This document shows, in pieces, positions 1 to 16,159 of a stretch of 64,000 nt of DNA. Position numbers and translations under genes: made by a program. The stretch's first letter is position 1; every line of letters begins with the position of its first letter. The notes under the pieces are model-generated. The model made no database searches. It was not told the DNA's origin and saw only the letters and a list, made by a program, of their open reading frames with translations. Location of the stretch: NCBI RefSeq assembly GCF_014170335.1, contig NZ_LZZS01000035.1:186001-250000 (forward strand). Reading direction: 5' to 3'. Source of the DNA: Achromobacter sp. UMC46. GTDB lineage: Bacteria > Pseudomonadota > Gammaproteobacteria > Burkholderiales > Burkholderiaceae_B.

Positions 1-609
1 CCGCAAGGCCCGTTGGCGCGCCAACTGGAAACCCGCCATGACTGGCTGGATCCGTCCCGCCGGCTGCTGCTGGTGACCGGACACCGGCGCGAGAGCTTTG
101 GCGGCGGTTTCAAGAGCATCTGCGCGGCGCTGGCCGAACTGGCCCGCCGCGACGACCTGCAGATCGTCTATCCCGTGCACTTGAATCCGCAAGTCCGCAA
201 TGTGGTGATGACGGAGTTGGCCGGCCTGTCGCATGTGCACCTGATCGATCCCCTGGATTACCTGGACTTCGTCTGGTTCATGCAGCGTTCTTACCTGATC
301 CTGACCGATTCCGGCGGGGTTCAGGAAGAAGCCCCGTACCTGGGCAAACCGGTGCTGGTCATGCGCGACGTGACCGAGCGCCCGGAAGCCGTGCGCGCGG
401 GAACGGTGGCGCTGGTCGGCACCGACACGCGGCGCATCGTGACCGAAGTCACCCGCCTGCTGGACGACCCCGACCTTCATGCGTCTTTCTCGCGACGCAT
501 CAATCCTTATGGCGACGGCCAAGCCAGCCAACGCATCGTGGACGCCTTGTGCGGACGCGCCGTATCGGAATTCGATCCCTACGGAACCGCGGCCGCCCCT
601 TCCGCCTGA
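1..609 (+). CDS. wecB: UDP-N-acetylglucosamine 2-epimerase (non-hydrolysing), 3' part
   Basis: The reading frame is open from the left edge, so the N-terminus lies outside the window; about 202 C-terminal residues remain. The enzyme interconverts UDP-GlcNAc and UDP-ManNAc in the cytoplasm. Visible family signatures are the VTGHRRESFG motif, the SDP-sugar-binding DSGGVQEEAP motif and VMRDVTERPEA. It lies 34 nt upstream of the bcsB-like gene on the same strand, at the head of the exopolysaccharide run, so it probably supplies UDP-ManNAc locally to the NfrB-like synthase. The family call is secure; its role as precursor supplier is inferred from position and from the known dependence of the E. 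coli NfrAB glycan on WecB. Confidence 0.93.
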   Translation, partial: PQGPLARQLETRHDWLDPSRRLLLVTGHRRESFGGGFKSICAALAELARRDDLQIVYPVHLNPQVRNVVMTELAGLSHVHLIDPLDYLDFVWFMQRSYLILTDSGGVQEEAPYLGKPVLVMRDVTERPEAVRAGTVALVGTDTRRIVTEVTRLLDDPDLHASFSRRINPYGDGQASQRIVDALCGRAVSEFDPYGTAAAPSA

Positions 610-643
610 CGCCCTCGCGACGTATTCCCTGCCCGGAGCCCCC

Positions 644-2860
644 ATGCACCACCCCGCCCTGACCACCCCCGTTATCCGCAGGCTTTGCCGCGCCCTGATG
701 GCCGCCGGCATGCTGCTTCCCCTTGCCACGATGGCCAGCCCCGTGGGCGACGCCTTGCGGCGCCTGCAAAGCGACGACTGGGTGACGCGCACCACCACGC
801 TGCAAGACCTGGGCATCACGGAGCCGGTCGTCCTGAGCAATAGCGAGGCGCGGCAGGACTTCTACCTGCCCGTGCCGCGCGGTGTGCCCATTTCGGACGC
901 CACGCTGAACTTCGACGCGAAATACACGAAGGGCGAGCCGGGGCGCACGAGCATGGTGCTGTGGGTGGACGGCGTGCCGCAAACCGCGCAGCGGATCGCC
1001 GACGGCGACGGGTCCCTGACCCGCAACCTGACCGTAGAGCCGCGCAGCCGCGAAACCGGCTTCCTGCGGCTGGGCGTGGACTGGCAATCGGAAATCGCGC
1101 TGCGCCATTGCGAAAGCAACCGCGACACGGCCAATGCGCTGACGATCTCGCCGCAGACCCGCTTGAGCTACCGCTATGACGCGTCGGCCATCGGCAACCT
1201 GGATGACGCGTGGGGCACCTTGCCCGGAAAACCCGTGCTGATGGTGCCCGCCGCCAAACTGGACGCGCAGGCCTTCGACAGCGCCTGGCGCATTGGCGTG
1301 GCGATGGAGCGCACGGGAAAGCGCGTGGCGGTCAAGGCGTTCCCCTCGGTCGGCGACGAGGTCGACACGCGCGGCCTGCAGGCGCCCGCCGGCCTTGCGC
1401 AGATCCCCGCGTTCGCCGCGCTGGCGGACAATGCGAAGCACAAGCTGGCCAGCCCGGCCGAAATCGGCGCGCTGCTGGTCCTGGGCGCCCCCGCCGTCAG
1501 CGGCGATGTGGTGATCGTCGACGCGTCGCTGCGTGCGCGCTACAACGCGGCGCTGGACGCCTTGCAGGCGCAGTTGGCCTCGGACGCCGACGCCGCCGAC
1601 GCGTTCAAGGCCTGGCGTCAGCAGCGCATGCCGCTGGCCGGCGCCGACCTGCCTTCCAAGGATATCCGGCTGCTGTCGCTGGGCCGCCAAGCCGTGATCG
1701 CGGTGGCGGCCGATGCCGGCGCGCAGGGCGCGGGCGCGTTCGATGCGGCATGGCGCCGCATCCTGGTCACCCGCCAGGTCAACGTGAAGACCGCCACGCC
1801 GCCCCAGACGTTCGAGGACGGCGGCTTGCGCCTGACGACGTTGGGCGGTTCGCCGGACAGCTTCGACGTGGTCGACCGCGGCGACTGGAACACGACCTTC
1901 CCGCTGGCTTCTGTGTCTTCCGACGGCCAGATGCCGGACGAGCTGATCATGGACCTTGCCGCGGCGCCGGGCGCGTCGACGACGCGGCCCGTGGCGTCGG
2001 TGTTCTGGAACGGCATCCTGCTGGCCGCCAAGCAACTGGACGCCGACGGCCGGCCCGAGCGCCTGACCGCGCGCGTGCCGGGCTATGCGCTGGGCGTCAC
2101 CAATGCCGTGCGCGTCACGTTCCAGCGCCAGCCGGTGTCGGTGGACTGCAACGAGATCCCCCAGGGCTACCCCGTGAACGTGCTGCCGACCAGCTACGTG
2201 AAGCCGGGCAAGGCGCAGCCCGACGGCACGTTCGTGGGGCTGCTGCCGCTATTGGCCGGCAGCCCGCAGTTGATCATTCCGGACAGCTACCTGGCCGATG
2301 CGCCCGACAACATCAAGCGCGTGATCGGCATCGCGTCCGCCAGCGGCATGTCCGCGACGCGCGCGGAATTGACGGTGGCGCCTGCGGGCCAGGCGGTCAA
2401 GCCGGCCCGGCCGTTCCTGGCGATGGAAGTCACGGTGGACGGGGCCAAGCCCCTGGTCCAGGTGACCGACCGCAAGCAATTGAAGGTGGACGGCAAGAAC
2501 GCGACCTGGCTGGACCTCTCCGGCCTGGACCACTTGAGCACCGCGGAAGTCGTCCGCGGCGGGGGCCAGGACGGCTTGCTGTGGCACACGCTGGGCCAGC
2601 ATCCGGGCATGCTTGATGCGCCTTTCGTGCTGAACCGCGGCAACGTCGCCATCATCGGCGCCACGGGCCCCGTGGCCTGGATCGATAGCGCCAACCCCGA
2701 CGCCAGCCACCCGCCGGGCGCAGGCGAAAGCGCCTTCTTCGAATGGCGCCGCTATATCTCGTGGAGCGTGCCCGCCATCAGCATCAGCATGCTGATCCTG
2801 ATTCTTATCCTGATCGTCGCCCTGCGCGTGAACCGCAGGAAGAGCAAGGAAAACAAGTAA
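644..2860 (+). CDS. BcsB-like periplasmic glycan-synthase subunit
   Basis: The protein is 738 aa. I start it at the ATG at 644, preceded by GGAG, because the longer frame back to 479 overlaps wecB and lacks a signal peptide. It has an N-terminal signal sequence (about residues 10-31, ending near MAS), a large beta-rich periplasmic body and one C-terminal transmembrane helix (about 705-727) followed by a basic tail. This is the layout of the cellulose synthase B subunit, which sits on the periplasmic face of the synthase and guides the emerging chain. The next gene, 12 nt downstream, encodes the glycosyltransferase. Because that partner is NfrB-like and not BcsA, the polymer need not be cellulose. 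Similarity to BcsB was judged by architecture and general sequence character. Confidence 0.8.
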   Translation: MHHPALTTPVIRRLCRALMAAGMLLPLATMASPVGDALRRLQSDDWVTRTTTLQDLGITEPVVLSNSEARQDFYLPVPRGVPISDATLNFDAKYTKGEPGRTSMVLWVDGVPQTAQRIADGDGSLTRNLTVEPRSRETGFLRLGVDWQSEIALRHCESNRDTANALTISPQTRLSYRYDASAIGNLDDAWGTLPGKPVLMVPAAKLDAQAFDSAWRIGVAMERTGKRVAVKAFPSVGDEVDTRGLQAPAGLAQIPAFAALADNAKHKLASPAEIGALLVLGAPAVSGDVVIVDASLRARYNAALDALQAQLASDADAADAFKAWRQQRMPLAGADLPSKDIRLLSLGRQAVIAVAADAGAQGAGAFDAAWRRILVTRQVNVKTATPPQTFEDGGLRLTTLGGSPDSFDVVDRGDWNTTFPLASVSSDGQMPDELIMDLAAAPGASTTRPVASVFWNGILLAAKQLDADGRPERLTARVPGYALGVTNAVRVTFQRQPVSVDCNEIPQGYPVNVLPTSYVKPGKAQPDGTFVGLLPLLAGSPQLIIPDSYLADAPDNIKRVIGIASASGMSATRAELTVAPAGQAVKPARPFLAMEVTVDGAKPLVQVTDRKQLKVDGKNATWLDLSGLDHLSTAEVVRGGGQDGLLWHTLGQHPGMLDAPFVLNRGNVAIIGATGPVAWIDSANPDASHPPGAGESAFFEWRRYISWSVPAISISMLILILILIVALRVNRRKSKENK

Positions 2861-2872
2861 CCCGGAAGCGCC

Positions 2873-4570
2873 ATGTCCTCGCTTTACTGGCCCTACTTCA
2901 TCGCGGACTACTACCGCGGGCTGGAAGTCGTGACCGCCATCGTGGGCGTGGTCATCCTGCTGTCGAGCCTGGATGACCTGTTCATCGACGCCTGGTTCTG
3001 GCTGCGCGAACTGAAACGCTCGCTGACGGTCAAGCGCCGCTACACCCCGCTGTCCGCTGAGCAGCTGCGCGCCAAGGAAGAGCAGCCGCTGGCGATCATG
3101 GTGCCCGCGTGGCTGGAGTACGACGTGATCTCGTCGATGCTCGAGACCATGGTGTCGACGCTGGAATACAAGAACTACATGATCTTCGCCGGCACTTACC
3201 AGAACGACCAGCGGACGATCGACGAAGTGGAACGCATGCGCCGGCGCTACCGGCAACTGGTCCGCGTGGAGGTGCCGCACGACGGGCCCACCTGCAAGGC
3301 CGACTGCCTGAACTGGATCGTGCAGGCCATCTTCGCGCAAGACGAGAAGCAACCGGTGCCCTTCGCCGGCGTCATCCTGCATGACAGCGAAGACGTGCTG
3401 CACCCGCTGGAACTCAAGTACTACAACTATCTGCTGCCGCGCATCGACTTCATCCAGTTGCCCGTGACGTCGCTGGAACGCCATTGGTACGAACTGGTCG
3501 CCGGCACCTACATGGACGAATTCGCGGAATGGCACACCAAAGACCTGGTGGTGCGCGAAAGCCTGTCCAAGATGGTGCCGTCCGCCGGCGTGGGCACCTG
3601 CTTTTCGCGCCATGCGCTGGTGGAGTTGGCCGCCGAAACCAATAACCAGCCTTTCAACACGGACACGCTGACCGAAGACTACGACATCGGCGCGCGGCTG
3701 GCCCAGCGCGGCATGAAGCAGATTTTCGGCAAGTTTCGCGTGGAATACGTGACGCGGCGCCGGTCGTGGTTCGGGCTTGGGCCTGAAAAGATCTCGACCA
3801 TCAGGATGCCGCTGGGCGTGCGCGAATACTTTCCCAATACGTTCCGCACCGCCTACCGGCAGAAGGCGCGCTGGACCTTGGGTATCGGCCTGCAAGGCTG
3901 GCAGCAGGTGGGCTGGACGGGATCGCTGGCCACCAAATACCTGCTGTTCCGCGACCGCAAGGGGCTGGTCACTTCGTTCATCGCCATCCTGGCGTATTTG
4001 CTGCTGGCCAACTTCTTCCTGTTTTTCCTGGCGGACAAGTTTGGCTGGTGGACGGTGTATTACCCGTCTTACTTCCGGCCCGGCGGGTGGCTGGTGACGC
4101 TGATGTGGATCAACGCAGTGGCCCTGCTGCTGCGCGTGGTGCAGCGGGCCTACTTCGTGGGCCACATGTATGGCTGGGAACATGCCTTGCTGTCGATCCC
4201 GCGGATGATCGTGGGCAACTTCATCAATGCGATGGCGGCGGCGCGGGCCTGGCGACTGTTCATCATGCATCTGATCACGGGCAAGCGCCTGGCCTGGGAC
4301 AAGACCATGCATGACTTCCCCAGCACCGACCAGCTGTCGCAGCAGCGCAAGCGGCTGGGCGAACTGCTGCTGTCCTGGCAGGCCATCGACCAGGACACGC
4401 TGTCGCGCGCGCTTGAAATCCAGGCGCGCGAGAAAAAGCCATTGGGCAAGATCCTGATGGAGCAAGGCTGGCTGGACGAGCGCACGCTCAACGAGGCCAT
4501 CGATTTCCAACAAGCGGGACAGGAGGCGCCGCCGCCCCCGCACGTAGAAGACAAACCCGCGACGACATGA
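2873..4570 (+). CDS. NfrB-like membrane glycosyltransferase (GT2) with C-terminal MshEN domain
   Basis: The protein is 565 aa. An N-terminal transmembrane helix (about 18-36) precedes a cytoplasmic GT2 domain with the processive-synthase motifs: DSED near 171-174 (DxD), TED at 267-269 and QKARW at 330-334 (QxxRW). Several transmembrane helices follow between about 365 and 455. Residues 494-517 and 523-546 are two tandem repeats with the spacing of the MshEN c-di-GMP-binding motif (RLG...L...ALEIQ and PLG...G...AIDFQ). In the first repeat the usual Gly is Gln (SWQAI). E. coli NfrB has the same order of parts and makes a ManNAc-type glycan. The stop overlaps the NfrA-like start by ATGA. Product sugar and c-di-GMP gating are inferred. 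Confidence 0.88.
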   Translation: MSSLYWPYFIADYYRGLEVVTAIVGVVILLSSLDDLFIDAWFWLRELKRSLTVKRRYTPLSAEQLRAKEEQPLAIMVPAWLEYDVISSMLETMVSTLEYKNYMIFAGTYQNDQRTIDEVERMRRRYRQLVRVEVPHDGPTCKADCLNWIVQAIFAQDEKQPVPFAGVILHDSEDVLHPLELKYYNYLLPRIDFIQLPVTSLERHWYELVAGTYMDEFAEWHTKDLVVRESLSKMVPSAGVGTCFSRHALVELAAETNNQPFNTDTLTEDYDIGARLAQRGMKQIFGKFRVEYVTRRRSWFGLGPEKISTIRMPLGVREYFPNTFRTAYRQKARWTLGIGLQGWQQVGWTGSLATKYLLFRDRKGLVTSFIAILAYLLLANFFLFFLADKFGWWTVYYPSYFRPGGWLVTLMWINAVALLLRVVQRAYFVGHMYGWEHALLSIPRMIVGNFINAMAAARAWRLFIMHLITGKRLAWDKTMHDFPSTDQLSQQRKRLGELLLSWQAIDQDTLSRALEIQAREKKPLGKILMEQGWLDERTLNEAIDFQQAGQEAPPPPHVEDKPATT

Positions 4571-7332
4571 CTCCGTTGACCCGTTCGCTCATCTTGTCCG
4601 CCGCGCTGGCATGCGTGTGGGCCGCCGCGCCCGCCACGGCCCAGAGCCAGAACCCGCCCCGGCCCCCGGCCAAGGCGGAAGCACCGCTGGAAGGCGCCGC
4701 GTGGCAGTTTGCCGATGAAGGCTACAAGAACTACGACGCGGGCAAGTATGAACTTGCCCAGCGGCAGGCGGAATCCGCCATCGCCCTGCGTCCGGACGTG
4801 GAACGGCTGCGCTTGCTGCTGATCTATTCGCTGCAGAAGCAAGGCAAGCTGAAAGAGGCCGACCAGGCCGCCGCCGACGCCATCAAGAACGGCCTGGATA
4901 CGCCCGCGTTGCGGCAGGCGCGCGCCAACCTCAAGCCGCAGGCCGCCCCCCGGCCGGCCGGCAAAGCCACCGCCGGCGCGGCTGGCGCACCGGCCACGAC
5001 GTCCGCCTACCGCCGCGGCTTTCCCATCGCCACGCGTGCCTACGCCGATTACAACCGTGCCGACTACCCGGCGGCCGCGCGCGGCGCCGAACAGGCGTTC
5101 CGCATCGATCCGAAGCAAGGCGCCTGGGCCATGCTGTGGCTGGACGCGCTGGAAGCCCAGGGCAAGTATGAAGACGCCGACGCCGCTGCCGCCCGAGCGA
5201 TTGCGCTGGGCGCGCCGAACAAGAACGACTTGACCGCGCGCCAGCAGACGATGAAGCGGCGCATGGCGATCAAGCCGGCCGAAGCGGGTTATCAGGCCCT
5301 GATCGCCAACCGTCCGGGCGACGCCGTGCCGCTGGCGCGCCAGGCCGTCGCGCTGGCGCCCGATACCGCCAGCCATCGCCTGCTGCTCGTCAGCGCGCTG
5401 ATGCTGGACAACCAGTTGCAGGCCGCCGAAGACGCCGCGACGGACGCGATGAAGCAGGACGACGAAAACACCGTGGCGCTGGTCATGCGCGCCTATCTGC
5501 GCCAGCGCCAGGGCAAGACCGATCTGGCCAACGCCGACTTCGACGCGGCCCTCAAGCAGGACTGGCTGGACGATGACCAGCGCCGCAACATCCGGTTGAT
5601 CGCCGCCGACGCGTCGCTGGCCGCAGGCGAGAATGCGCGCGCACTGGCTTTGATGCAGCCGCTGGGCGCCAAGGACGACGCGGCGGACGCCCGCGTCAAG
5701 CGCGCACGGTCGCGCCCGGCAGTGCCCGCCACGCTGACCTTGGCCAACTATCCCGCCCCCGTGCAGGATTGCCGCGACACGCCCTACGGCACGTCGTGTG
5801 AACTGCTGCCCTCGGACGCCGCCGGCAGCGGCGGCCCCGCCTCGCTGGCCTACGCCGCCTATGCGCGCGAAGACTATCAGGAAGCCATCGCCCAGGCCCG
5901 CCAGGCGGTCGCGCAAGACCCCGCCAACAAAGAGCTTCAGCGCCTCTTGACCACCACGCTGGCCGCCGGCGACCGCGCGCAATTGGCGGAAGCCAACCAG
6001 CGCATGAGTGAAGCACTGGCGGCCCAGCCCGACGACCCCACGCTGCTGATGCAGCGCGGTTATCTGCATCAGCGCATGAAACAACCCAAGCTGGCGCTGC
6101 AGGATTTCCAGGCGGCGCGCGCCACCGGCAAAGCCCCCCCCACCGTCATCCTGGACGAGGGCTACGCGCTATCGGGCGTCGGCGACAAGCGCGGCGCGGT
6201 CGGCAAGCTGAAGGAAGCCATCGACGAAGCCGATGCTGGCAGGCTGGAACTGACGCCGCAGCAGCGCTTCGACACCCGCAACGGCATCGCGGGACTGGAC
6301 CGCGAATGGGGCGGCTATTTTTCCGCCGGCTATCGCGGCGCCCGGCCCGCTTCGGCCGGACTGGGCGGCGCGGCCGTCACCGTGCCGGGCGACGCCGTCT
6401 TCAGCACCGCCGAGATCTTCTGGCGGCCTTCGGATTTCCTGAATTCGTCCACCCAGGTCTTCGAACTGTACGGCCGCCTGTCCAATACGCTGTACGACAA
6501 GGGCGGCAAGACCTCGAGCCAGACGGTGTCCGACCCGTGCGGCGGCAGCGTCGACATCAATGAAACCAGCAACCAGGGGCTGGCCGGCTTCCCCACGACG
6601 ATCGGCTCGCTGGGGATGCGCTTCACGCCGTCCACCGAGGTCGGCCTGACGTTCGGCCTGGAACGCCAGTTCAACCTGGGCTCGGCGACCCGGCGCGGGA
6701 CCTTCAGCCCGGACCCGTCGGCGTTGCGCTGCGCGCTCAACCAGGACAACCAGACCGCCCACTATGAAACCAACGCCGGCAGCGGCGGCTGGCTGGCCTA
6801 TGTGACTTACGGGCTGTATGAAGGCACCACACTGCGCATCGACCGGCCCGACTGGTTCACGATGGAAGGCTACGTGCAGGCCGGCTATTCCTGGCAGGAC
6901 ATGCCCGCCAAGTTCTGGCTGCGCGACAATGCGACCGGCGTGGACGGCGAGAAGTCATCGGGCAGGCTGAAGCGTGACCAGGCCTTCGGCGCCGGCGAAC
7001 TGCGCGTGGGCCGCAGCTACCGCATGGACGCCATCAGCGACCGCCTCGTGTTCTTCCCGTATGCCGTGATCGGCGCCGACTGGCTGTCGAACCGCAACCG
7101 CGTATCGGGCCTGGACATCAACGGCACCGATTCCTATAACCTGCTGGGCAACGGTTCGTCCTGGTCGATGGGCGCCGGCCCCGGCTTCAACGTCCGTTAC
7201 TGGTTCCGCGAAGACCATTACAACGCGCCGCGGTCCTATCTGGACTGGACGACGCAGTACCGTTTCAACATCGGCGGCGGGGCGGCTGACCGGGCCCGGG
7301 GCCTGTTCATCAACCTGACCCTGTCGTACTGA
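4567..7332 (+). CDS. NfrA-like TPR outer-membrane protein (glycan export)
   Basis: The protein is 921 aa with a signal peptide (about 1-25, cleaved after TAQ or ATAQ). Residues about 45-150, 155-360 and 420-580 are Ala-rich helical repeats of TPR type (for example YDAGKYELAQRQAESAIALRP). From about residue 590 to the end the sequence becomes aromatic and beta-rich and finishes in ...LTLSY, an outer-membrane-barrel type ending. This matches the NfrA family (bacteriophage N4 adsorption protein A), which acts as periplasmic scaffold and outer-membrane exit for the NfrB-made glycan. It is translationally coupled to the glycosyltransferase by an ATGA overlap. Whether it serves as a phage receptor here is unknown. 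Confidence 0.85.
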   Translation: MTPLTRSLILSAALACVWAAAPATAQSQNPPRPPAKAEAPLEGAAWQFADEGYKNYDAGKYELAQRQAESAIALRPDVERLRLLLIYSLQKQGKLKEADQAAADAIKNGLDTPALRQARANLKPQAAPRPAGKATAGAAGAPATTSAYRRGFPIATRAYADYNRADYPAAARGAEQAFRIDPKQGAWAMLWLDALEAQGKYEDADAAAARAIALGAPNKNDLTARQQTMKRRMAIKPAEAGYQALIANRPGDAVPLARQAVALAPDTASHRLLLVSALMLDNQLQAAEDAATDAMKQDDENTVALVMRAYLRQRQGKTDLANADFDAALKQDWLDDDQRRNIRLIAADASLAAGENARALALMQPLGAKDDAADARVKRARSRPAVPATLTLANYPAPVQDCRDTPYGTSCELLPSDAAGSGGPASLAYAAYAREDYQEAIAQARQAVAQDPANKELQRLLTTTLAAGDRAQLAEANQRMSEALAAQPDDPTLLMQRGYLHQRMKQPKLALQDFQAARATGKAPPTVILDEGYALSGVGDKRGAVGKLKEAIDEADAGRLELTPQQRFDTRNGIAGLDREWGGYFSAGYRGARPASAGLGGAAVTVPGDAVFSTAEIFWRPSDFLNSSTQVFELYGRLSNTLYDKGGKTSSQTVSDPCGGSVDINETSNQGLAGFPTTIGSLGMRFTPSTEVGLTFGLERQFNLGSATRRGTFSPDPSALRCALNQDNQTAHYETNAGSGGWLAYVTYGLYEGTTLRIDRPDWFTMEGYVQAGYSWQDMPAKFWLRDNATGVDGEKSSGRLKRDQAFGAGELRVGRSYRMDAISDRLVFFPYAVIGADWLSNRNRVSGLDINGTDSYNLLGNGSSWSMGAGPGFNVRYWFREDHYNAPRSYLDWTTQYRFNIGGGAADRARGLFINLTLSY

Positions 7333-7362
7333 CGACGCGCATCGAACAAGGAGTCCGTCCTC

Positions 7363-8343
7363 ATGCAAACCCTTTTCCCCTTCTCCCGCCGCCTGGCGCT
7401 TGGCCTGTCCGCCGCGCTGCTGGCCGTTGCCGCCCACGCGCAGGAAGGCTCGTCCCTCGTCATCCAGGGCAAGGACAACTGGCTGTTCCCCGGTTGGGGC
7501 AGCCTGACGCAAGTCGACATGCGCGGCATCGACGCCTCGACCCAGCTGGTGCGCGAAACCCGCGACGCATTGGCCGCCAAGGGCATCCAGCTGGAAGTGC
7601 TGGTGCTGCCGGACAAGACGCTGTTCTATCAGGACAAGCTGCCCGACGGCAAATCGCTGAGCGCCGACGTGAAGAAGCGCTATCAGACCATCCAGGACAA
7701 GCTGAAGCAGGCCGGCGTGTCGACCTTCGACGACGAAGCCGTACTGAAGCGCGTGAAGGACAGCGGCAAGGACGTCTTCTACCGCACCGACCAGCACTGG
7801 ACGCAGGCCGCGGCCGACGCCACCGCCGAAGCGCTGGCGCAGCAAATCAAGCAAGACGTGAAGACGCTGGCCGGCAAACCCGGCACCGGCATGCCGCTGG
7901 GCAGCGTGGTCAACGAGCGCCGCTATGGCGATCTGGCCGAACTGTTCCTGACGCCGGACCAGCGCAAGCAGGCCGGCCGCGAGACCTACACCGTGCGCCG
8001 CCAGGCCGAAAACCAGAGCCTGCTGGACGATGCGCCGGCCCCCGTGCACGTGACCGGCCACAGCATGGTGCAGCCGTATTTCGGTTTTCCGCAGAAGCTG
8101 TCCAACGTGCTGGACCGGCCGGTCTCCGTCAATTGGAAGCCCGGCAACGTCGGCCAGTGGATCATGCTGTTGGAGTACCTGGAGTCGCCCGCGTTCAAGC
8201 AGAACAAGCCGCAGGTGCTGGTCTGGCAGATGTTCGAGCCGACCTATGCGCAAGGGCCGGATGCGAAGGGCTTGTGGGACAACGCGTCCATCATGGGCGC
8301 CGACACCTGGCGCAGCCGCATGAAGGCCGCCATTGGCAAGTAG
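7363..8343 (+). CDS. AlgX/AlgJ-like periplasmic SGNH-fold O-acyltransferase (first copy)
   Basis: The protein is 326 aa with a cleavable signal peptide (about 1-26, AHA/QEG). It has the alginate-acetyltransferase arrangement: a D-x-H pair in YRTDQHW (Asp143, His145) and a likely nucleophile Ser234 in TGHSMVQ. Proteins of this type move an acyl group from a membrane acyltransferase (MBOAT) to the polysaccharide in the periplasm. It starts 30 nt after the NfrA-like gene, with AAGGAG upstream. A second, membrane-anchored member of the family follows directly. The transferred group is not defined by sequence. Confidence 0.85.
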   Translation: MQTLFPFSRRLALGLSAALLAVAAHAQEGSSLVIQGKDNWLFPGWGSLTQVDMRGIDASTQLVRETRDALAAKGIQLEVLVLPDKTLFYQDKLPDGKSLSADVKKRYQTIQDKLKQAGVSTFDDEAVLKRVKDSGKDVFYRTDQHWTQAAADATAEALAQQIKQDVKTLAGKPGTGMPLGSVVNERRYGDLAELFLTPDQRKQAGRETYTVRRQAENQSLLDDAPAPVHVTGHSMVQPYFGFPQKLSNVLDRPVSVNWKPGNVGQWIMLLEYLESPAFKQNKPQVLVWQMFEPTYAQGPDAKGLWDNASIMGADTWRSRMKAAIGK

Positions 8344-8347
8344 CGCC

Positions 8348-9442
8348 GTGGAACCCTCTGACAAAGCCGCCGCGCCCAGCCACCGGCTGAGTGCCTTCGT
8401 GGTCGCGTTGCTGCTGGCGGTCGGCCTGGGCTGGGGCGCCTGGTGCCTGGTCGACGCCAAGATCAGCCCGGCCGAGGTGTCGCCGGCCGCGTGGGCCGAC
8501 GGATCGGCGGGCAGCGTGCTGAACAAGGCCATGCATATGCCCAGGCAGGCGGAAGTGGACACCTGGAACGCCTCGGTGCGCTACCGCGTGCTGGGCGACC
8601 TGGGCGACCAGGTCGCGATGGGCTGCCCGCAATGGCTGTTCTACCGCGACGGCTTGCGCCAGCAACCGGGCGTCCATGTTTTCAATGAACGCCTGCGCCT
8701 GATGCGGCACTGGGTGGAGGAACTGCGCCAGCAGCAGGTGCAGGTGCTGGTCGTCGCCGTGCCCGACAAATCCCGCGTCGAAGCCGACCGGCTCTGCGGC
8801 CTGCCGGTATCCCTGCCGATGCGCCAGACGCTGGACGCATGGCAGGACGCCCTGCGCGTGCAGGGCGTGCCCTTCGTGGACCTGCGCGACGCGCTGAAGG
8901 CCGCGCCCGCCCCCCGTTTCTTCCGCACCGACGTGCACATGAACGCGCAGGGTGCGGAAGCCGCCGCGCAGCGCGTAGCCGAAGCGGCCTTGCCGCTGCT
9001 GCAAGGACCCGGCGCGCAAGCGTTCAAGACCGACGCGCCCGTGCCCGCCGCGCCGCGGATGGGCGACCTGATCGTGCTGGCGGGGCTGGAGCATGCCCGG
9101 CCTGGCTGGCGGCCCGAGCTGGAAGTCGTCTCGGAACAGAAGATAGAACCGGTGCGCGCCGGCGGGCTGCTGGACGAGGCGCCGCCCGTGGAGGTGCTGC
9201 TGGCGGGCACCTCCAACGGCCGCCGCAGCCAGTTCGCGGAACGGCTGGGCATCGGCCTGGGCCGCGAAGTCTGGAACATGAGCCTGGACGGCGGGCAGTT
9301 CTCGGGGGCGTTGCAAATCGCGCTCAAGCAGCGCGGCCAATGGCCAAAGAGCCTGAAGCTGCTGATCTGGGAGTTCTCGGAAAACGCGTTGTCCCTGCCG
9401 CTGACCCCGGACGAAAAGGCCGTGCTGGCCCGCCTGCCTTAG
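8348..9442 (+). CDS. AlgJ-like membrane-anchored SGNH-fold O-acyltransferase (second copy)
   Basis: About 364 aa from the GTG at 8348. A TTG at 8333 with AAGG upstream is an alternative start that would overlap the previous gene. An N-terminal hydrophobic segment (about 14-34) looks like an uncleaved anchor. The catalytic pattern is retained: FRTDVHMN (Asp195, His197) and AGTSN (Ser289). The domain resembles AlgJ, which cooperates with an MBOAT in alginate acetylation. The pair of SGNH proteins ahead of an MBOAT gene suggests either sequential transfer or two acceptor sites, as with AlgJ and AlgX. The start codon is the least certain part of the call. Confidence 0.8.
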   Translation: MEPSDKAAAPSHRLSAFVVALLLAVGLGWGAWCLVDAKISPAEVSPAAWADGSAGSVLNKAMHMPRQAEVDTWNASVRYRVLGDLGDQVAMGCPQWLFYRDGLRQQPGVHVFNERLRLMRHWVEELRQQQVQVLVVAVPDKSRVEADRLCGLPVSLPMRQTLDAWQDALRVQGVPFVDLRDALKAAPAPRFFRTDVHMNAQGAEAAAQRVAEAALPLLQGPGAQAFKTDAPVPAAPRMGDLIVLAGLEHARPGWRPELEVVSEQKIEPVRAGGLLDEAPPVEVLLAGTSNGRRSQFAERLGIGLGREVWNMSLDGGQFSGALQIALKQRGQWPKSLKLLIWEFSENALSLPLTPDEKAVLARLP

Positions 9443-9451
9443 CGAACCAAG

Positions 9452-11032
9452 ATGCTATTCAACTCTTACCTGTTCCTGCTGATCTTCCTGCCCGTCACGC
9501 TGGCCATCTATTACGCGCTGGGGCCGCTGAACGTGCGCCTGGCGGCATTGTGGCTGTGCCTGACCTCGCTCGTCTTCTACGGCTGGTGGAACCCGCAGTT
9601 CGTCGTGCTTTTGGCCGGCTCCATCGCATTCAACTACGTGATCAGCCAGTTGATCCTGCGCAACACCGGACGCCCCAAGCTGCAAGGGCTGATCGTCGGG
9701 CTGGGCGTAGGCGCCGACCTGGTGCTGCTGTTCCACTACAAGTACTTCGCGACGCTGCTGAACTTCCTGACCGACCTGGGCGTGACCAGCACGACGATGG
9801 ACGACATCATCCTGCCCCTGGGAATTTCGTTCTTCACGTTCACGCAGATCGGCTACCTGCTGGATTGCAAGGCGGGCGTGGTGAAGGAACGCAGCCTGCT
9901 CAGCTACGTGCTGTTCGTCACGTTCTTTCCGCACCTGATCGCCGGCCCCATCCTGCATCACAAAGAAATGATGCCGCAGTTCGCGCAACCCGGGAACTAC
10001 CGGTTCAAGGCGGAAAACCTGTCGGTCGGCGCCATGCTGTTCGTGATCGGGTTGGCCAAGAAGGTGCTGCTGGCCGATGGCATCGCGCCCTATGCGGACG
10101 CCGGTTTCGCCGCGCCCGGCGAATTGATGTTCTGGGGTTCGTGGGGCGCCAGTGTCTGCTATGCGCTGCAGCTGTACTTCGATTTTTCGGGCTATTCGGA
10201 CATGGCGCTGGGCCTGGCCAAGATGTTCGGCATCCGCTTCCCGCTGAACTTCAATTCGCCCTACAAGGCCAGCAGCATCATCGACTTCTGGGCGCGCTGG
10301 CATATGACGCTGACCCGCTACATCACCGCCTACCTGTACTACCCCGTGGCGATGGCGGTGTCGAAATGGCGCACGGACCGCAACCTGCCGGTGGGGTCTG
10401 CGGGCATCAGAACGCCGGGCGGATTCGTCAGCAGCATCGTGTTCCCGACGCTGTTCACAATGACGCTGGCGGGCGTGTGGCACGGCGCGGGCCTGCAGTT
10501 CATCGTCTTCGGGCTGCTGCACGCCATGTACCTGTCGGTGAACCACGCCTGGCGGATTTTCGTGGTGGGCCGCAAGCCGGCCGCCGCGCGCAAGGTGGGC
10601 GGCGTCAAGCGCGCGCTGTGCATCCTGCTGACCTTCGTGGCGGTGCTTGTGGCGCAGGCGTTCTTCCGCGCCCACGGCGTGGGCGACGCGATGCTGCTGA
10701 TGCAGGGCATGGTGGGCATGCGCGGCATGGAATCGCTGGACCTGTCCGCGCATGTGGCCGGCCTGGCCTGGGGCGACGCCTGGCGCGTCATCGTGGGCCA
10801 TCACCTGCAACTGGCCTATGCGGTCGTGCTGCTGGGCATCGCCTGGTTCACGCCCAATGCACACCAGATCCTGGGCCGCTATTCGCCCGCGCTCTTCAAG
10901 ACGCAGGAAGCGCCCCGCGCCTTCATGCGGTGGCGTCCCAACGCGGCCTGGCTAGCGGTGATGCTGGCGCTGCTGTTCCTTTGCCTGGTAAACCTGCATA
11001 AGGAAACCCGGTTCCTCTATTTCCAATTCTGA
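9452..11032 (+). CDS. MBOAT-family membrane O-acyltransferase (AlgI/DltB-like)
   Basis: The protein is 526 aa, polytopic, with roughly ten or more hydrophobic segments spread over its length. The family signature is clear: LFHYKYFATLLNF in the N-terminal third, FFPHLIAGPILHH near the middle, and the invariant His344 in GVWHGAG. MBOATs such as AlgI and DltB pass an acyl or aminoacyl group across the inner membrane to SGNH partners. Here it lies between two such partners and a Dlt-like carrier and ligase pair, so its donor is more likely a carrier-protein thioester than acetyl-CoA. That donor assignment is inferred from gene context. Confidence 0.93.
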   Translation: MLFNSYLFLLIFLPVTLAIYYALGPLNVRLAALWLCLTSLVFYGWWNPQFVVLLAGSIAFNYVISQLILRNTGRPKLQGLIVGLGVGADLVLLFHYKYFATLLNFLTDLGVTSTTMDDIILPLGISFFTFTQIGYLLDCKAGVVKERSLLSYVLFVTFFPHLIAGPILHHKEMMPQFAQPGNYRFKAENLSVGAMLFVIGLAKKVLLADGIAPYADAGFAAPGELMFWGSWGASVCYALQLYFDFSGYSDMALGLAKMFGIRFPLNFNSPYKASSIIDFWARWHMTLTRYITAYLYYPVAMAVSKWRTDRNLPVGSAGIRTPGGFVSSIVFPTLFTMTLAGVWHGAGLQFIVFGLLHAMYLSVNHAWRIFVVGRKPAAARKVGGVKRALCILLTFVAVLVAQAFFRAHGVGDAMLLMQGMVGMRGMESLDLSAHVAGLAWGDAWRVIVGHHLQLAYAVVLLGIAWFTPNAHQILGRYSPALFKTQEAPRAFMRWRPNAAWLAVMLALLFLCLVNLHKETRFLYFQF

Positions 11033-11057
11033 CCGCGACGCGGTCCTGGAGCATCCT

Positions 11058-11297
11058 ATGGACATCAAGACGATCGAGGCCAAAGTCTCGGACATCATCG
11101 AAGGCATCATCCTGACCAAGGTGGATCCCGACACCCTGCTGATCGACTCCGGCCTGGTGGATTCGCTGGCCGCGGTGGACCTGGCGCTGGCCGTGGAACG
11201 CGAGTTCGGCTGCAAGATCCCCCCGACCGAGATCGACGTGCATCTGGAATCGGTGCACACGCTTGCCGCATTCATCGCGGAGAACGCCCGCGCTTGA
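11058..11297 (+). CDS. DltC-like acyl/aminoacyl carrier protein
   Basis: The protein is 79 aa, the normal size of a stand-alone carrier protein. The phosphopantetheine attachment Ser is visible in SGLVDSLAAVDL (Ser36). The following EFGCKIPPTEID segment resembles DltC. GGAG lies 7 nt upstream of the ATG. It sits between the MBOAT and the AMP-forming ligase, so it most likely carries the ligase product as a thioester and presents it to the MBOAT. Being a DltC-like carrier does not by itself show that the cargo is D-alanine. Confidence 0.88.
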   Translation: MDIKTIEAKVSDIIEGIILTKVDPDTLLIDSGLVDSLAAVDLALAVEREFGCKIPPTEIDVHLESVHTLAAFIAENARA

Positions 11298-11328
11298 CGC
11301 GCACGCGAGCAGCCAGGGGGACGGGACG

Positions 11329-12798
11329 ATGCGTTTCGATTTCAACACCTTTGATTTTGCCGACACGGCCGCGGGCGCCGATGCCGTCGCGGTCGTTGAC
11401 GCGCAAGGCGCCACGACATGGGGCGAGTTGAAGGCCGCCACCGAGGCCTGGGAAGCGGCTGCGCGCCGGGCCGGCGCCACGGCGGGCGTGCCGCTTGAAG
11501 TCTCCGGCCACAAGGAGACCGCGTTCCTGGTCGCCATCCTGGGGTGCCTGCGGCTGGGCGTGCCTTTCGTGCCGGTGGACGTCATCAACCCGCCCGAGCG
11601 CATCGCGCGCATCGGCGAGCTGGTGCGCGCCGGCCTGCGCTACGACGCGCAAGGCCGCGCCTTCCTGCCGGGCTGCGAGGCGCCCGCGCCGCTGGCCGAA
11701 GCGGGGCTGGCCTACATCATGTTCACGTCGGGCAGCACGGGCGATCCCAAGGGCGTGCAGATCGGGCGGGAAAGCGTCACGCTCTTTGCCGGCTGGATCC
11801 GGGACTGCCTGGGCCTGGGCCCCGCGCCGGCGTTCATGGACCAGATGCTGTTCAGCTTCGACTTCTCGCTGTTCAACTGGGTGGGCGCGCTGGAACTGGG
11901 CGGCGCCTGCGTGCTGTGTCCGCGCGAGACCATCGCCGAACGCGACGCCTTCATCCGGTATCTGGCCGACACGCGCGTCAGCGTCTGGGCCTCGACGCCG
12001 TCGTTCGTGCGGCAGCAGTTGTTCAACCCCGACTTCGATCACGCCCATCTGCCAGACCTGCGCGTCTTCGTCTTCGGCGCGGAATCGTTGACGCCGCCCA
12101 TGGCCGAAGCCCTGTGGCAGCGCTTTCCGCACGTGCGCATCATCAATTCCTACGGGCCGACGGAAGCCACCTGCTCCACGACCTGGGTCGAGATCGATCC
12201 GGCCTTGCGCGCCGCCGCGCCCAACCCCTTCCCCATCGGCCGCGCCAAACCGTATGCGGACGTCTTCATCGAAAACGGCGAAATCAGCATCGCGGGTGAC
12301 CACGTCATGCGCGGCTACCTGAATCGCCCGGACCTGAACGCTTCGCGCATGTTCACGCGCGACGGCAAGCGCGGATATCGCAGCGGCGACCTGGGCGAGA
12401 TCGATGCGCAAGGCCTGGTCACCTTCCGCGGCCGCGTCGACGACCAGATCAAGCTGCACGGCTACCGCATCGAGCTCGCCGAGATCGACGCGGCCATCGC
12501 CACACTGCCGGGCGCGCGCGCAGGCGCCACCGTCGCCCTGCGCCGCCCCGATGGCGCCATCGTCCGGCTGATCGGCTTTGTCGAACCGGCGGTCGCGGGC
12601 CCCGACGGCTTGCAGCCGCTGCCGCCAGCGCTGCAAGATTGGAAAGCCGTGCTGGGCCGCCGCCTGCCGCCCTACATGATCCCGTCGGAACTGGTCGCCT
12701 GCCACCGCTTCCCCACGACCAGCACGGACAAGGCGGACCGCAAGCAGCTGCAGGAGCTGTATCTGGACGCCCGCCTCAGCAAAAAACCGGAGTCCTGA
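11329..12798 (+). CDS. AMP-forming acyl/amino acid ligase, DltA-like
   Basis: The protein is 489 aa from the ATG at 11329, preceded by AGGGGGAC. Adenylation-domain motifs are intact: FTSGSTGDPKG (from residue 132), SYGPTEATCS, YRSGDLGEID, DDQIKLHGYRIELAEI and a C-terminal catalytic Lys in TTSTDKADRKQ. The stand-alone size and the IKLHGYRIELAEI region are typical of DltA and of stand-alone A-domains such as prolyl-PCP ligases. It should activate an acyl or amino acid as the adenylate and load it on the adjacent carrier. The substrate pocket cannot be read reliably without a structural alignment. Confidence 0.87.
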   Translation: MRFDFNTFDFADTAAGADAVAVVDAQGATTWGELKAATEAWEAAARRAGATAGVPLEVSGHKETAFLVAILGCLRLGVPFVPVDVINPPERIARIGELVRAGLRYDAQGRAFLPGCEAPAPLAEAGLAYIMFTSGSTGDPKGVQIGRESVTLFAGWIRDCLGLGPAPAFMDQMLFSFDFSLFNWVGALELGGACVLCPRETIAERDAFIRYLADTRVSVWASTPSFVRQQLFNPDFDHAHLPDLRVFVFGAESLTPPMAEALWQRFPHVRIINSYGPTEATCSTTWVEIDPALRAAAPNPFPIGRAKPYADVFIENGEISIAGDHVMRGYLNRPDLNASRMFTRDGKRGYRSGDLGEIDAQGLVTFRGRVDDQIKLHGYRIELAEIDAAIATLPGARAGATVALRRPDGAIVRLIGFVEPAVAGPDGLQPLPPALQDWKAVLGRRLPPYMIPSELVACHRFPTTSTDKADRKQLQELYLDARLSKKPES

Positions 12799-12801
12799 AC
12801 C

Positions 12802-13476
12802 ATGCCCATCCCTTTTCGCAATGCGGCCCTTGCCTTGGCGCTGGCCGCTATCGCCGGCAGTGCCGCGGCCGAAGGCGCCTTCGCGCAGCTCTACGCGGCC
12901 CGTCCGCCGGCCGGCTCCTCGTTCGTGCGCCTGGTGAACCCGGACGCCGCGCCGTTGCGCGTGCAGATCGCCGGCGGGCCGGCGCAGGAGCCCGGCGCGG
13001 CCAAGCCCGCCACCACCTATGCCATCGTCAAAGGCAACCAGCCCTTCACCGTGCTGGTCGACGGCAAGCCCGCGGCAAGCCTGCAGGTGGCCCCCGACAC
13101 CTTCACCACGCTGATTCCCCGGCGCACGGACGGCAAACTGACGTTCGCCGTCATCGACGACAGCAATGGCGCGCAGGACGCGCTGAAGGCGGAACTGCGT
13201 TTCTACAACCTGGCGGCCGACTGCCCCACCGGCCAGTTGGGCGTCAGCCCGTCCGGGCCGGCGCTATTCCAGGACGTGAAGCCGGGCGCGTCCGCCGCGC
13301 GCGCCATCAACCCCGTCAGCGCCACGTTGGCGGCAGGTTGCGGCGCCGCCGCCTCGCCCACGCTGCCCCTGCCGGCGTTGCAGCCCGGCGACCACTACAG
13401 CCTGTTCCTGACCGGGACCGTGGCCGCGCCGGTGTTGCGCGGTCAGGTCAGCGCCACGGACCCCTACCGCCGCTAA
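12802..13476 (+). CDS. AlgF-like periplasmic protein
   Basis: The protein is 224 aa with a signal peptide (about 1-23, GSAAA/EG). The segment FAQLYAARPPAGSSFVRLVN resembles the start of mature AlgF, an alginate O-acetylation factor with two beta domains. Two cysteines (CPTG and AGCG) could form a disulphide. It starts 3 nt after the ligase stop and so is probably translated with it. AlgF is thought to pass the acyl group between AlgI, AlgJ and AlgX; a matching bridging role here is inferred. Confidence 0.75.
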   Translation: MPIPFRNAALALALAAIAGSAAAEGAFAQLYAARPPAGSSFVRLVNPDAAPLRVQIAGGPAQEPGAAKPATTYAIVKGNQPFTVLVDGKPAASLQVAPDTFTTLIPRRTDGKLTFAVIDDSNGAQDALKAELRFYNLAADCPTGQLGVSPSGPALFQDVKPGASAARAINPVSATLAAGCGAAASPTLPLPALQPGDHYSLFLTGTVAAPVLRGQVSATDPYRR

Positions 13477-13485
13477 GGAGACGAC

Positions 13486-14616
13486 ATGCGCCGCGTTTTC
13501 CGCGATGACCACGAACTGTTCCGCGACCAGGTCCGGCGCTTTGTCGCCAACGAGATCGCGCCCCACTACGCCGAATGGGAAAAGGCCGGCGTCACGCCGC
13601 GCTCGCTCTGGTTGCGCGCGGGCGAAGAAGGCCTGCTCAATTGCGCCCTGCCGGACCCCTACGGCCTGGGCGGCGACTTCGGCCATTCCGCCGTCGTGAT
13701 CGAAGAGCTGGCCCATGCCAATTTCCTGGGCATCGGCTTTTCGATCCACTCCGACATGGTGTCGCCCTATCTGCTGAACTTCGGCACCGATGCGCAAAAA
13801 GAGCGCTGGCTGCCCCCAATGACGCGCGGCGAAACGATCGGCGCCATCGCCCTGACCGAACCCGGCGCCGGCAGCGACCTGAAGGCCATCCGCACGCGGG
13901 CGCGCCGCAACGGCGACCACTACGTGCTGAACGGCCAGAAGACCTTCATCACCAACGGCGTCAATGCCGGCCTGGCCATCGTGCTGGCCAGCACCGACCT
14001 TGACCTGGGCGCGCGCGGCCTGTCGCTGTTCTGCGTCGAGGAAAACCTGCCGGGCTACACCAAGGGCGCGGCGCTGGACAAGATCGGCCAGCACAGCCAG
14101 GACACGTGCGAACTGTATTTCGACGACGTCCGCGTGCCGGCCGATTGCCTGCTGGGCCAGGAAAACGCCGCCTTCGAATACATGACCCGAGAGCTGGCCC
14201 GCGAACGGCTGGCGATCGCCTTGCGCGCGGCCGCCTCGGTCGAAGGCATGCTGGACGAAGCCGCGCAATACACGCGCGACCGCAAGGTCTTCAGCCGCCG
14301 CGTGATCGACTATCAGAACACCCGCTTCAAGCTGGCCAACGCGCGCGCGCAGACCACGATGCTGCGCGTGTTCCTGGACGACTGCCTGACGCGCCAGATG
14401 GAAGGCGAGCTGGACGCCACGACGGCCGCCATCGCCAAGCTCAACGCCACCGAAATCCAGGGCCGCGTGCTGGACGACCTGCTGCAGATGTATGGCGGCT
14501 ATGGCTACATGGCGGAATACGGCATCGGCCGCGCCTGGGTCGACGCCCGCGCCCTGCGCATTTTCGGCGGCACCAGCGAAGTCATGCTGGAGATCATCGG
14601 CCGCAGTTTCAACTGA
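13486..14616 (+). CDS. Acyl-CoA dehydrogenase family protein
   Basis: The protein is 376 aa, a full-length flavin acyl-CoA dehydrogenase: helical N-terminal domain, ALTEPGAGSDL (flavin/substrate loop), GQKTFITNG and a C-terminal MYGGYGYMAEYGIGR followed by RIFGGTSEVM. Gly occupies the position where medium-chain enzymes have the catalytic Glu. A Glu in ELARERLAIA sits about where isovaleryl-CoA and long-chain enzymes place theirs, so it is probably active. It starts 9 nt after algF-like with AAGGAG and lies in the same operon. It could oxidise a carrier-bound acyl or prolyl group for the decoration pathway, or be unrelated metabolism. Confidence 0.9.
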   Translation: MRRVFRDDHELFRDQVRRFVANEIAPHYAEWEKAGVTPRSLWLRAGEEGLLNCALPDPYGLGGDFGHSAVVIEELAHANFLGIGFSIHSDMVSPYLLNFGTDAQKERWLPPMTRGETIGAIALTEPGAGSDLKAIRTRARRNGDHYVLNGQKTFITNGVNAGLAIVLASTDLDLGARGLSLFCVEENLPGYTKGAALDKIGQHSQDTCELYFDDVRVPADCLLGQENAAFEYMTRELARERLAIALRAAASVEGMLDEAAQYTRDRKVFSRRVIDYQNTRFKLANARAQTTMLRVFLDDCLTRQMEGELDATTAAIAKLNATEIQGRVLDDLLQMYGGYGYMAEYGIGRAWVDARALRIFGGTSEVMLEIIGRSFN

Positions 14617-14623
14617 CGCGCGC

Positions 14624-15613: not shown

Positions 15614-15633
15614 GAGGGTATCCTGCGCCGCCT

Positions 15634-16047
15634 TCAGCCGCGGTTGCCGAACAGGCCGGACAACGACGCCAGCAGGTCGGTCGGGTTGAATTGCTGGCCC
15701 GGCTGCACCGCGCCTTCCGGCGTGGCCTTGTCCACCAGCTGCGGCAGCAGCGAAGACAGGGAGCCCAGCACGGAATCGGTGTCCTGGCCGGTCTTGGCGG
15801 CCAGATCATTGACGACGCCGGGGTCCAGCACGGCACCGAGCTGGTCGGGGCTGACGGGCAGGTTCTGCCCCGTGCCCACCCACGACGAGACGATCTCGTT
15901 CAAGCCGCCCTGCTGGAAGCTCGCGATCAGGCCGCTCAGGCCGCCCGGGTATTTGTTCAATTGCTCGATCAGCGCGGGCAGCAGCGATGCCGAGCCCCCT
16001 TGCTGACCGCCGCCGGCCATCGAGGCCAAGGTATCCAACAGACTCAT
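15634..16047 (-). CDS. YidB-like DUF937 family protein
   Basis: The protein is 137 aa starting MSLLDTLASM. I prefer the ATG at 16047 because AGGAG lies 7 nt upstream; an ATG two codons earlier would sit almost on the AGGAG. The Gly/Gln-rich N-terminus and the pattern LPALIEQLNKYPGGLSGL ... GQNLPVSPDQLGAVL fit the DUF937/YidB family, whose function is unknown. The 3' end lies 20 nt from the lipoprotein start on the same strand, so the two may be co-transcribed. Confidence 0.85.
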   Translation of the reverse strand: MSLLDTLASMAGGGQQGGSASLLPALIEQLNKYPGGLSGLIASFQQGGLNEIVSSWVGTGQNLPVSPDQLGAVLDPGVVNDLAAKTGQDTDSVLGSLSSLLPQLVDKATPEGAVQPGQQFNPTDLLASLSGLFGNRG

Positions 16048-16159
16048 CGCCATGCTCCTGGAAAGTCGGAAATCCAGTATAGGGCCGCGGCCCACGCAAC
16101 GCATGTCAGGCCCGTTACCTGAGGCCGGATCTTTGCAAAACTTGTAAATCTCAGTCGGG

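Follow-up and report, generated by a model that had tools for sequence, protein, structure and literature searches.

An NfrB-type exopolysaccharide operon of Achromobacter sp. UMC46 with an exchangeable cassette predicted to decorate the polymer by way of a carrier protein

At the beginning of a 64,000-nucleotide stretch of the Achromobacter sp. UMC46 genome (hereinafter the window; C35:186001-250000, on contig NZ_LZZS01000035.1 of a 6.68-Mb genome), an NfrB-type glycan synthase core is joined in one operon to a cassette of acylation and carrier-protein genes. We put at about 60% the probability that this cassette is exchangeable and attaches to the polymer, through an ester bond, an acyl group activated on a carrier protein of its own. 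The operon comprises 11 genes, all on the plus strand and spaced by at most 34 nucleotides (nt), of which the first, wecB, begins 552 nt upstream of the window. With the chosen ATG starts for the BcsB-like protein (644) and the ligase (11329), the intergenic gaps from wecB to the dehydrogenase gene are 34, 12, -4, 30, -11, 9, 25, 31, 3, and 9 nt. An earlier note, made from the sequence alone, had described 11 same-strand genes with gaps of 35 nt or less, encoding a WecB-fed NfrB synthase with a cyclic di-GMP (c-di-GMP)-type domain, an alginate-like acylation set, and an acyl carrier protein (ACP)/ligase pair; this description holds, and all 11 family assignments are backed by Pfam or NCBIfam. 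The features are as follows (window coordinates):

1..609, plus strand: wecB/nfrC, UDP-GlcNAc 2-epimerase, 3' part (Pfam Epimerase_2, 196.9 bits; full open reading frame [ORF] L002:14449-15609, 386 aa)
644..2860, plus strand: BcsB-like periplasmic subunit with a hydrophobic C-terminal segment (Pfam BcsB, 27.3 bits, cut-off 21)
2873..4570, plus strand: NfrB-type glycan synthase of glycosyltransferase family 2 (GT2) with a C-terminal MshEN-type domain (NCBIfam PRK15489, 953 bits)
4567..7332, plus strand: NfrA-like outer-membrane exit protein with tetratricopeptide repeats (TPRs) (Pfam NfrA_C, 97.2 bits; TPRs)
7363..8343, plus strand: AlgJ-like SGNH acyltransferase 1, ALGX family (Pfam ALGX, 246.5 bits)
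8333..9442, plus strand: AlgJ-like SGNH acyltransferase 2, ALGX family (Pfam ALGX, 216 bits)
9452..11032, plus strand: MBOAT O-acyltransferase (Pfam MBOAT)
11058..11297, plus strand: ACP, DltC-like (Pfam PP-binding)
11329..12798, plus strand: carrier-protein ligase, DltA homolog with the non-D-Ala pocket DFFAVGSCS (AMP-binding)
12802..13476, plus strand: AlgF-like periplasmic adaptor (Pfam AlgF, 41.4 bits, cut-off 34.4)
13486..14616, plus strand: acyl-CoA dehydrogenase of the long-chain (LCAD) type (Acyl-CoA_dh)
7363..14616, plus strand: whole decoration cassette (genes 5-11) in the slot between nfrA and the DUF4434 gene, 7.3 kb
14624..15547, minus strand: DUF4434 putative lipoprotein glycoside hydrolase, convergent, at the slot border (Pfam DUF4434, 200 bits)

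The synthase core bears the features of an NfrB-type system. The GT2 motifs of NfrB (HDSED, TEDYD, and QKARW, corresponding to DxD, TED, and QxxRW) are kept in 32/32 alignment rows, its MshE-related, c-di-GMP-type domain scores 54 bits against an NCBIfam cut-off of 38, and the start of this MshEN domain reads RLG(E/D)LL in 30 of the 32 rows and SLG in the other two. As expected for an NfrB/NGR-type system, an NfrA partner with an NfrA_C domain and an adjacent WecB are present; the latter is the sole match in the source genome (E≤1e-20), and such a single copy agrees with the rule reported in the part of Junkermeier and Hengge (2021, PMC8669469) covered here. By these signatures this is an NfrB-type synthase operon that is probably activated by c-di-GMP, and homology to the Escherichia coli NGR system points to an exopolysaccharide backbone that is probably based on ManNAc. 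BcsB is the weakest family call; 12 of the 13 relatives of the BcsB-like protein, with the window copy included, match BcsB at E≤0.01. Profile searches against solved structures with this protein or the DUF4434 protein recovered no useful match. NfrB occurs sporadically (16/399 genomes of the order and 7/369 of the class; E≤1e-60), and in the NfrB tree its nearest named relatives are from Achromobacter sp. Bel (99%) and A. marplatensis.

Conservation of the arrangement was examined with two baits. A single scan of named genomes, for which two peptide patterns were drawn from the alignment of operon-type ligases only, so that unlike ligases could escape, yielded 32 loci, in all of which the ligase is present by design. 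They come from Achromobacter, Pandoraea, Bordetella genomosp. 1, Delftia, Trinickia, Burkholderia, Oxalicibacterium, Cupriavidus, Diaphorobacter, and two Stenotrophomonas metagenome-assembled genomes; as two (L103 and L113) are cut by contig ends, 30 uncut loci were counted. The order bcsB-nfrB-nfrA-algJ-algJ-mboat-acp-ligase-algF on one strand is retained in all 30, in line with the conserved gene order that the earlier note had named as support. The dehydrogenase gene, which that note had counted as a member of the set, follows in 25 of the 30; the five exceptions are all among the six Pandoraea loci, and its membership stands in this majority only. In 11 of the 12 named genomes that were checked, a wecB gene lies where the coordinates would place it (the same contig being assumed from the coordinates); a frame break splits it at L120, and L127 has none at the matching place. 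With NfrB as bait, 20 Achromobacter loci were taken from 33 NfrB-bearing genomes; several named loci come from genomes that also supplied another locus (e.g., L054 and L115), and the rows are not all independent. An operon-type ligase is found in 19/33 NfrB-bearing versus 1/10 NfrB-less Achromobacter genomes (Fisher p=0.011, kinship ignored), the single NfrB-less case being a 78%-complete assembly. With the whole ordered set in 12 of the 20 Achromobacter loci and the order from bcsB to algF in 30/30 uncut named loci, the arrangement goes beyond chance. Broken or split frames are also seen in relatives, namely in bcsB (L090), nfrA (L075 and L108), wecB and bcsB (L075), wecB (L120), and mboat (L121); these may reflect real loss or assembly error.

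The 20 NfrB-bait Achromobacter loci fall into three states: 12 carry the full set, seven have wecB-bcsB-nfrB-nfrA only, and a different set is found at L093. The nfrA and DUF4434 stops are 7.30-7.45 kb apart in the full loci and 48, -3, 61, 19, 89, and 517 nt apart in six of the core-only loci, the seventh (L089) having no DUF4434 match in the stretch examined; by these distances, genes 5-11 fill a single slot, which those six loci leave vacant or almost vacant. Where the earlier note had considered that genes 7-11 might be missing or scattered in relatives, genes 5-11 are indeed missing in 7/20 loci, yet as one block and never scattered, which fits an accessory cassette. On the NfrB tree, in which long branches call for caution and the five dehydrogenase-less Pandoraea loci were labelled as full, the distribution of the full state takes six changes, of which four are forced by well-supported branches.

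The alternative contents of the slot indicate what recurs in it. At L093, 7.1 kb hold genes for an AlgF-like protein, two AlgJ-like proteins, an FkbH protein (323 bits against a cut-off of 147), an ACP, and an MBOAT protein. This pairing of an FkbH-type protein and an ACP in the decoration slot lies at L093:5065-7202 on the minus strand; FkbH kin (E≤1e-100) occur in 4 of 330 genomes of the order, and an ACP match adjoins FkbH in 4/5 loci (L196-L199 being the recurrences). At L055, from another family, the slot holds an AlgJ/MBOAT/AlgF set and, on the opposite strand, genes for an ACP, a ligase that has the D-Ala pocket, and a dehydrogenase from a different subfamily. The divergent gene for this acyl-CoA-dehydrogenase-family protein (L055:17134-18306, minus strand) stands in front of those for the ACP and ligase, an apparently independent pairing of a dehydrogenase with a carrier-protein ligase beside an nfr operon. 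Thus, a carrier-protein-loading gene accompanies the MBOAT set in 15/15 NfrB-bait loci that have one (13 window-like, FkbH-ACP at L093, and ligase-ACP-dehydrogenase at L055), and given the differing loaders of L093 and L055, we take this gene to be the recurring element. The other 18 NfrB-bait loci outside Achromobacter have no MBOAT match.

In some of the lineages, the exit protein and the DUF4434 protein diverge with the state of the cassette. Four core-only loci whose NfrB is 88% identical have NfrA proteins of 50-52% identity, and the three of them with a DUF4434 match show 53-56% for that protein, whereas full loci with NfrB at 88-91% have NfrA at 82-86% and DUF4434 at 72-85%; at L093, NfrA is at 39% and DUF4434 at 63%. 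The identities for L075 and L090 come partly from interrupted frames.

The ligase is the component for which the earlier label, Dlt-type decoration, calls for correction. The phosphopantetheine serine motif DS(L/M/V) of the ACP is present in all 36 rows. At nine pocket positions (columns from alignments, GrsA numbering), the window ligase reads DFFAVGSCS, and the pattern DFF(A/T)(V/L/M)GSCS is found in 34/34 rows, a count that leans on the ligase bait and in which L054 and L115, one genome, are counted twice. By comparison, the second ligase of the source genome (L094, 54-55% identical) reads DLYVLCTVA and Bacillus cereus DltA, read off the alignment, DLMTLCTVA. Among the DltA contacts named in the part of PMC11253843 covered (D197, L198, C269, V301), the window ligase keeps D197 and has F, G, and C at the others. 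In B. cereus DltA, C269 restricts the binding of L-Ala, and its replacement by Ala relaxes the preference (PMC4176424, in part); this position is Gly in 34/34 rows, and the L198 and V301 positions and their neighbors are changed too. Since all compared positions except that of the amine-binding Asp differ from D-Ala ligases, the Dlt-type label is misleading. We consider it probable, judging by this altered and conserved pocket, that the ligase activates a small amino acid other than D-alanine. The code DFFAVGSCS is not known to match any nonribosomal peptide synthetase code; the Thr code is presumably the nearest, as a weak lead only.

Alternatively, the cassette could be a second Dlt system that places D-alanine on the polymer. 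The ligase is indeed a DltA homolog that retains the α-amine Asp, and that of L055 keeps the D-Ala pocket. The 317 bits of the window ligase to the DltA subfamily model lie under the cut-offs, which decides nothing because the dra-like ligase of the same genome falls below as well (383 vs 476); in the Protein Data Bank (PDB) the window ligase has linear gramicidin synthase as its top hit (264 bits) and scores 239 bits to DltA 3e7w and 133 bits to the prolyl ligase 7thn. Yet the C269 gate and the L198 and V301 positions are altered, and the genome already has a separate second set (L094:7727-11907; G000:C19) with a D-Ala-pocket ligase, an ACP, and a DltB-like MBOAT protein. By gene content alone this set is probably the dra locus, which in Bordetella is needed for D-alanine incorporation into the outer membrane (PMC9858536, in part); its type of ligase is found in 40/40 well-assembled Achromobacter genomes and in 42/43 overall. 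D-alanylation is hence an improbable role for the cassette, and the pocket disfavors plain D-alanine as the substituent. In the two Stenotrophomonas loci, the ACPs (L126:9650-9874 and L127:9740-9964) are just 36-38% identical although the ligases are 64-65% identical, which suggests that the carrier was replaced or evolves quickly.

The acylation proteins retain the parts of an alginate-type O-acetylation apparatus: an MBOAT protein with a catalytic-type His, AlgJ-type SGNH motifs, and AlgF. Both SGNH proteins have AlgJ as their nearest PDB relative (4o8v, 80 bits vs 48 for AlgX in the first; 53.9 vs 30.7 bits in the second), and the DxH and Ser motifs are present in 32/32 rows of the first and in 32/32 rows with letters of the second. 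At 326 and 369 aa, as against 456-487 aa in AlgX chains, the two ALGX proteins of the operon do not include a full-length AlgX, which bears a C-terminal carbohydrate-binding domain. The histidine of the MBOAT motif WHG is kept in 33/33 rows with letters. Although DltB is the sole PDB match of this protein, it is 30% identical over 275 aa to the DltB-like protein of its own genome and scores 170.9 bits against the DltB cut-off of 375, under which the genome's own DltB-like protein (214.9 bits) also falls.

The dehydrogenase scores 361 bits to mitochondrial LCAD and keeps in 28/28 rows the ERL glutamate, which we take to be the catalytic base in LCAD and isovaleryl-CoA dehydrogenase. Its closest non-operon kin in the sample of the order are 61-62% identical; one such locus (L174) lies, by eye, beside acyl-CoA-ligase-like and CoA-transferase-like ORFs, and a by-eye reading of the surroundings of the other (L173) gave no hint of a substrate. 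We think that the enzyme was probably recruited from acyl-CoA breakdown. A trio of ligase, carrier, and dehydrogenase, PltF/PltL/PltE, makes pyrrole-2-carboxyl from proline, and the three matching enzyme types, together with 202 bits to the RedW prolyl-carrier-protein dehydrogenase model, raise the prospect of a pyrrole-2-carboxyl ester on the polymer. However, the RedW score is far from the cut-off of 650, which places the enzyme outside that family, and only 160 bits are obtained to the prolyl-ACP dehydrogenase 4irn; the ligase likewise scores higher with DltA 3e7w than with the prolyl ligase 7thn, and five Pandoraea loci lack the dehydrogenase. In view of the family scores and these losses, we rejected the pyrrole-2-carboxyl substituent as very improbable.

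The DUF4434 gene, which was not on the list of the earlier note, has its stop eight positions past that of the dehydrogenase gene. It is near the operon in 31/32 named loci (L113 being cut) and convergent in 30; at L123 it is on the operon strand, and at L112 it is ~2.3 kb away. It borders core-only operons too and matches at just 23-25% in L060, L069, and L070. On this distribution we assign it to the predicted core of this branch of NfrB systems. The model of the protein (pLDDT 88.7) has a barrel-like run of strands and helices with eight main strands, and E139 and E239, invariant in 20/20 rows, lie at the ends of modelled strands 4 and 7. Members of glycoside hydrolase clan GH-A have a (β/α)8 barrel with Glu ending strands 4 and 7, and the resemblance to this pattern suggests that the DUF4434 protein is a putative glycoside hydrolase acting on the polymer of the operon. 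Its frame runs on upstream of the TTG start with a twin-arginine-like, lipobox-like signal. In the literature searched, no paper naming DUF4434 was found.

Taken together, these predictions are consistent with the following scheme. WecB would supply UDP-ManNAc, which NfrB, assisted by the BcsB-like subunit, would polymerize once its MshEN domain binds c-di-GMP. The ligase would adenylate a small non-D-alanine amino acid and transfer it to the ACP, where the LCAD-type dehydrogenase of most lineages would then oxidize the bound acyl group. The MBOAT protein would carry the acyl group across the inner membrane, the two AlgJ-like enzymes and the AlgF-like protein would attach it to the chain in the periplasm, NfrA would export the product, and the convergent DUF4434 enzyme could trim or recycle the chain. 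A bolder version, offered tentatively and with the odds against it, is a new route of polysaccharide decoration in which a carrier-bound non-alanine amino acid is oxidized to a dehydroamino-acyl or keto-acyl group and passed by the MBOAT/AlgJ relay to the glycan, with activation genes swapped in a fixed slot and the exit protein and hydrolase adapting to them, perhaps changing a phage receptor.

Several observations weigh against this scheme. The ligase of L055, found with the NfrB bait, departs from the pocket shared by the ligase-baited rows. Closest as it is to fatty acyl-CoA enzymes, the dehydrogenase might act on a CoA ester, and the genomes of the 5/6 Pandoraea loci without it hold only 33-35% copies (E≤1e-60), by which oxidation is not essential. 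In core-only L079-L081, DUF4434 is little reduced, at 84-87%, and NfrA is at 79-80%, where full loci with NfrB at 95% have NfrA at 90-94%; this smaller drop of NfrA counts against a strict rule of divergence with cassette state. There is no DUF4434 match in the stretch examined at L089, L056, L057, and L058. The class of the MBOAT protein (AlgI or other) is putative, and acyl-ACP rather than acetyl-CoA as its donor is a supposition. Kin of this protein at 42-47% identity occur in 17 further genomes of the class, in 16 cases with a match across residues 1-526; within 1.5 kb of these kin there is no match to AlgJ/AlgF-like proteins, ACP, or ligase, and one has FkbH beside it. The 16/17 kin thus free of ACP, ligase, and FkbH would suit plain O-acetylation, whereby the MBOAT, AlgJ-like, and AlgF-like proteins use acetyl-CoA as in alginate and the ligase, ACP, and dehydrogenase are unrelated and merely co-transcribed. 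ALGX and AlgF are moreover alginate acetylation families, and such genes are interpreted as acetyltransferases in the parts of Sellner et al. (2021, PMC8669472) and PMC8669469 covered. We nevertheless hold this account unlikely: the ACP and ligase genes lie within the acylation set in all 30 uncut named loci, and a carrier-protein-loading gene goes with every MBOAT set found through NfrB.

The core of the operon, as the covered sections of Sellner et al. make clear, had already been noticed, and it is not a categorically new system: these describe how nfrA, nfrB, and wecB cluster in A. xylosoxidans with genes for a BcsB homolog and periplasmic O-acetyltransferases, and tie this cluster to N4-like phages; those of Junkermeier and Hengge describe a Simplicispira nfr cluster with alginate-type acetyltransferase genes. 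The earlier claim that no described system has the full set thus fails for the core with O-acetyltransferases and stands for the remainder, insofar as neither main text uses the terms carrier protein, dehydrogenase, Dlt, ligase, or adenylation. The literature searched likewise held no paper joining NfrB with AlgJ or DltA, nor one joining four of the five terms DltA, MBOAT, AlgX, exopolysaccharide, and ACP. What is new is the conserved order including the ACP and ligase, the altered ligase pocket, the cassette slot, and DUF4434 as a candidate hydrolase. The A. xylosoxidans cluster very likely corresponds to this operon in a sister species; the main text of PMC8669472 leaves the ACP, ligase, and dehydrogenase unmentioned, and the sections covered contain neither the cassette slot nor DUF4434.

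Comparable systems share parts of this apparatus. The E. coli nfrBA-ybcH locus, whose NGR glycan is the phage N4 receptor, is alike in its GT2-MshEN synthase, its NfrA-type exit protein, and its link to WecB (dependence there, according to the parts of the papers covered; linkage here), whereas the operon here includes wecB, has a BcsB-like gene ahead of nfrB, carries a seven-gene cassette, and is adjoined by DUF4434. The alginate AlgI-AlgJ-AlgX-AlgF set has MBOAT, SGNH (ALGX family), and AlgF-like proteins in common with the operon, which differs in having two AlgJ-like proteins, no full-length AlgX, an embedded ACP and ligase, and a different synthase. Dlt (DltABCD) and Bordetella dra share the carrier-protein ligase, ACP, and MBOAT protein; unlike them, the operon has a non-D-Ala pocket, an MBOAT protein apparently distant from DltB, AlgJ/AlgF-like partners, and an extra dehydrogenase, and AlgJ-like proteins appear to take the place of DltD, for which no search was made. 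The glycyl-carrier-protein ligase AlmE (PMC11253843, in part) is likewise a Gram-negative DltA-like ligase serving an envelope glycolipid, but it serves lipopolysaccharide glycylation and has L248 and C316, to which F and, if C316 is equivalent to C269, G would correspond here.

NfrB glycans serve as receptors for phage N4 and are targets of c-di-GMP, and their structure is still postulated in the covered parts of PMC8669472 and PMC8669469. A cassette in a slot predicts that strains differing mainly in the slot share a backbone and differ in substituents, and the system offers enzymes open to assay, among them a ligase whose conserved pocket is new and the putative hydrolase dedicated to this polymer. 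If the proposed scheme is true, Dlt-type carrier-protein chemistry is joined to alginate-like periplasmic acyl transfer, relays usually handled separately, and the swapping of activation genes is perhaps a way to alter a phage receptor.

Separate inner promoters, which the earlier note had set against its proposal, were looked for by a consensus scan of window positions 1-16500; it returned one promoter-like site (minus strand, 14961) versus 1.3 in shuffles, other promoter types being outside the scan, and a terminator scan of the same positions returned nine terminator-like sites versus 11.0. With counts at the shuffle level, there is no inner promoter or terminator signal above chance. An ORF at 15592-16122 (plus strand) was discarded as not being a gene. 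Upstream of wecB, a hairpin with a T-rich run resembles a terminator (read by eye), and the gene immediately upstream of wecB (L002:12487-13686) codes for a YadA-type trimeric autotransporter.

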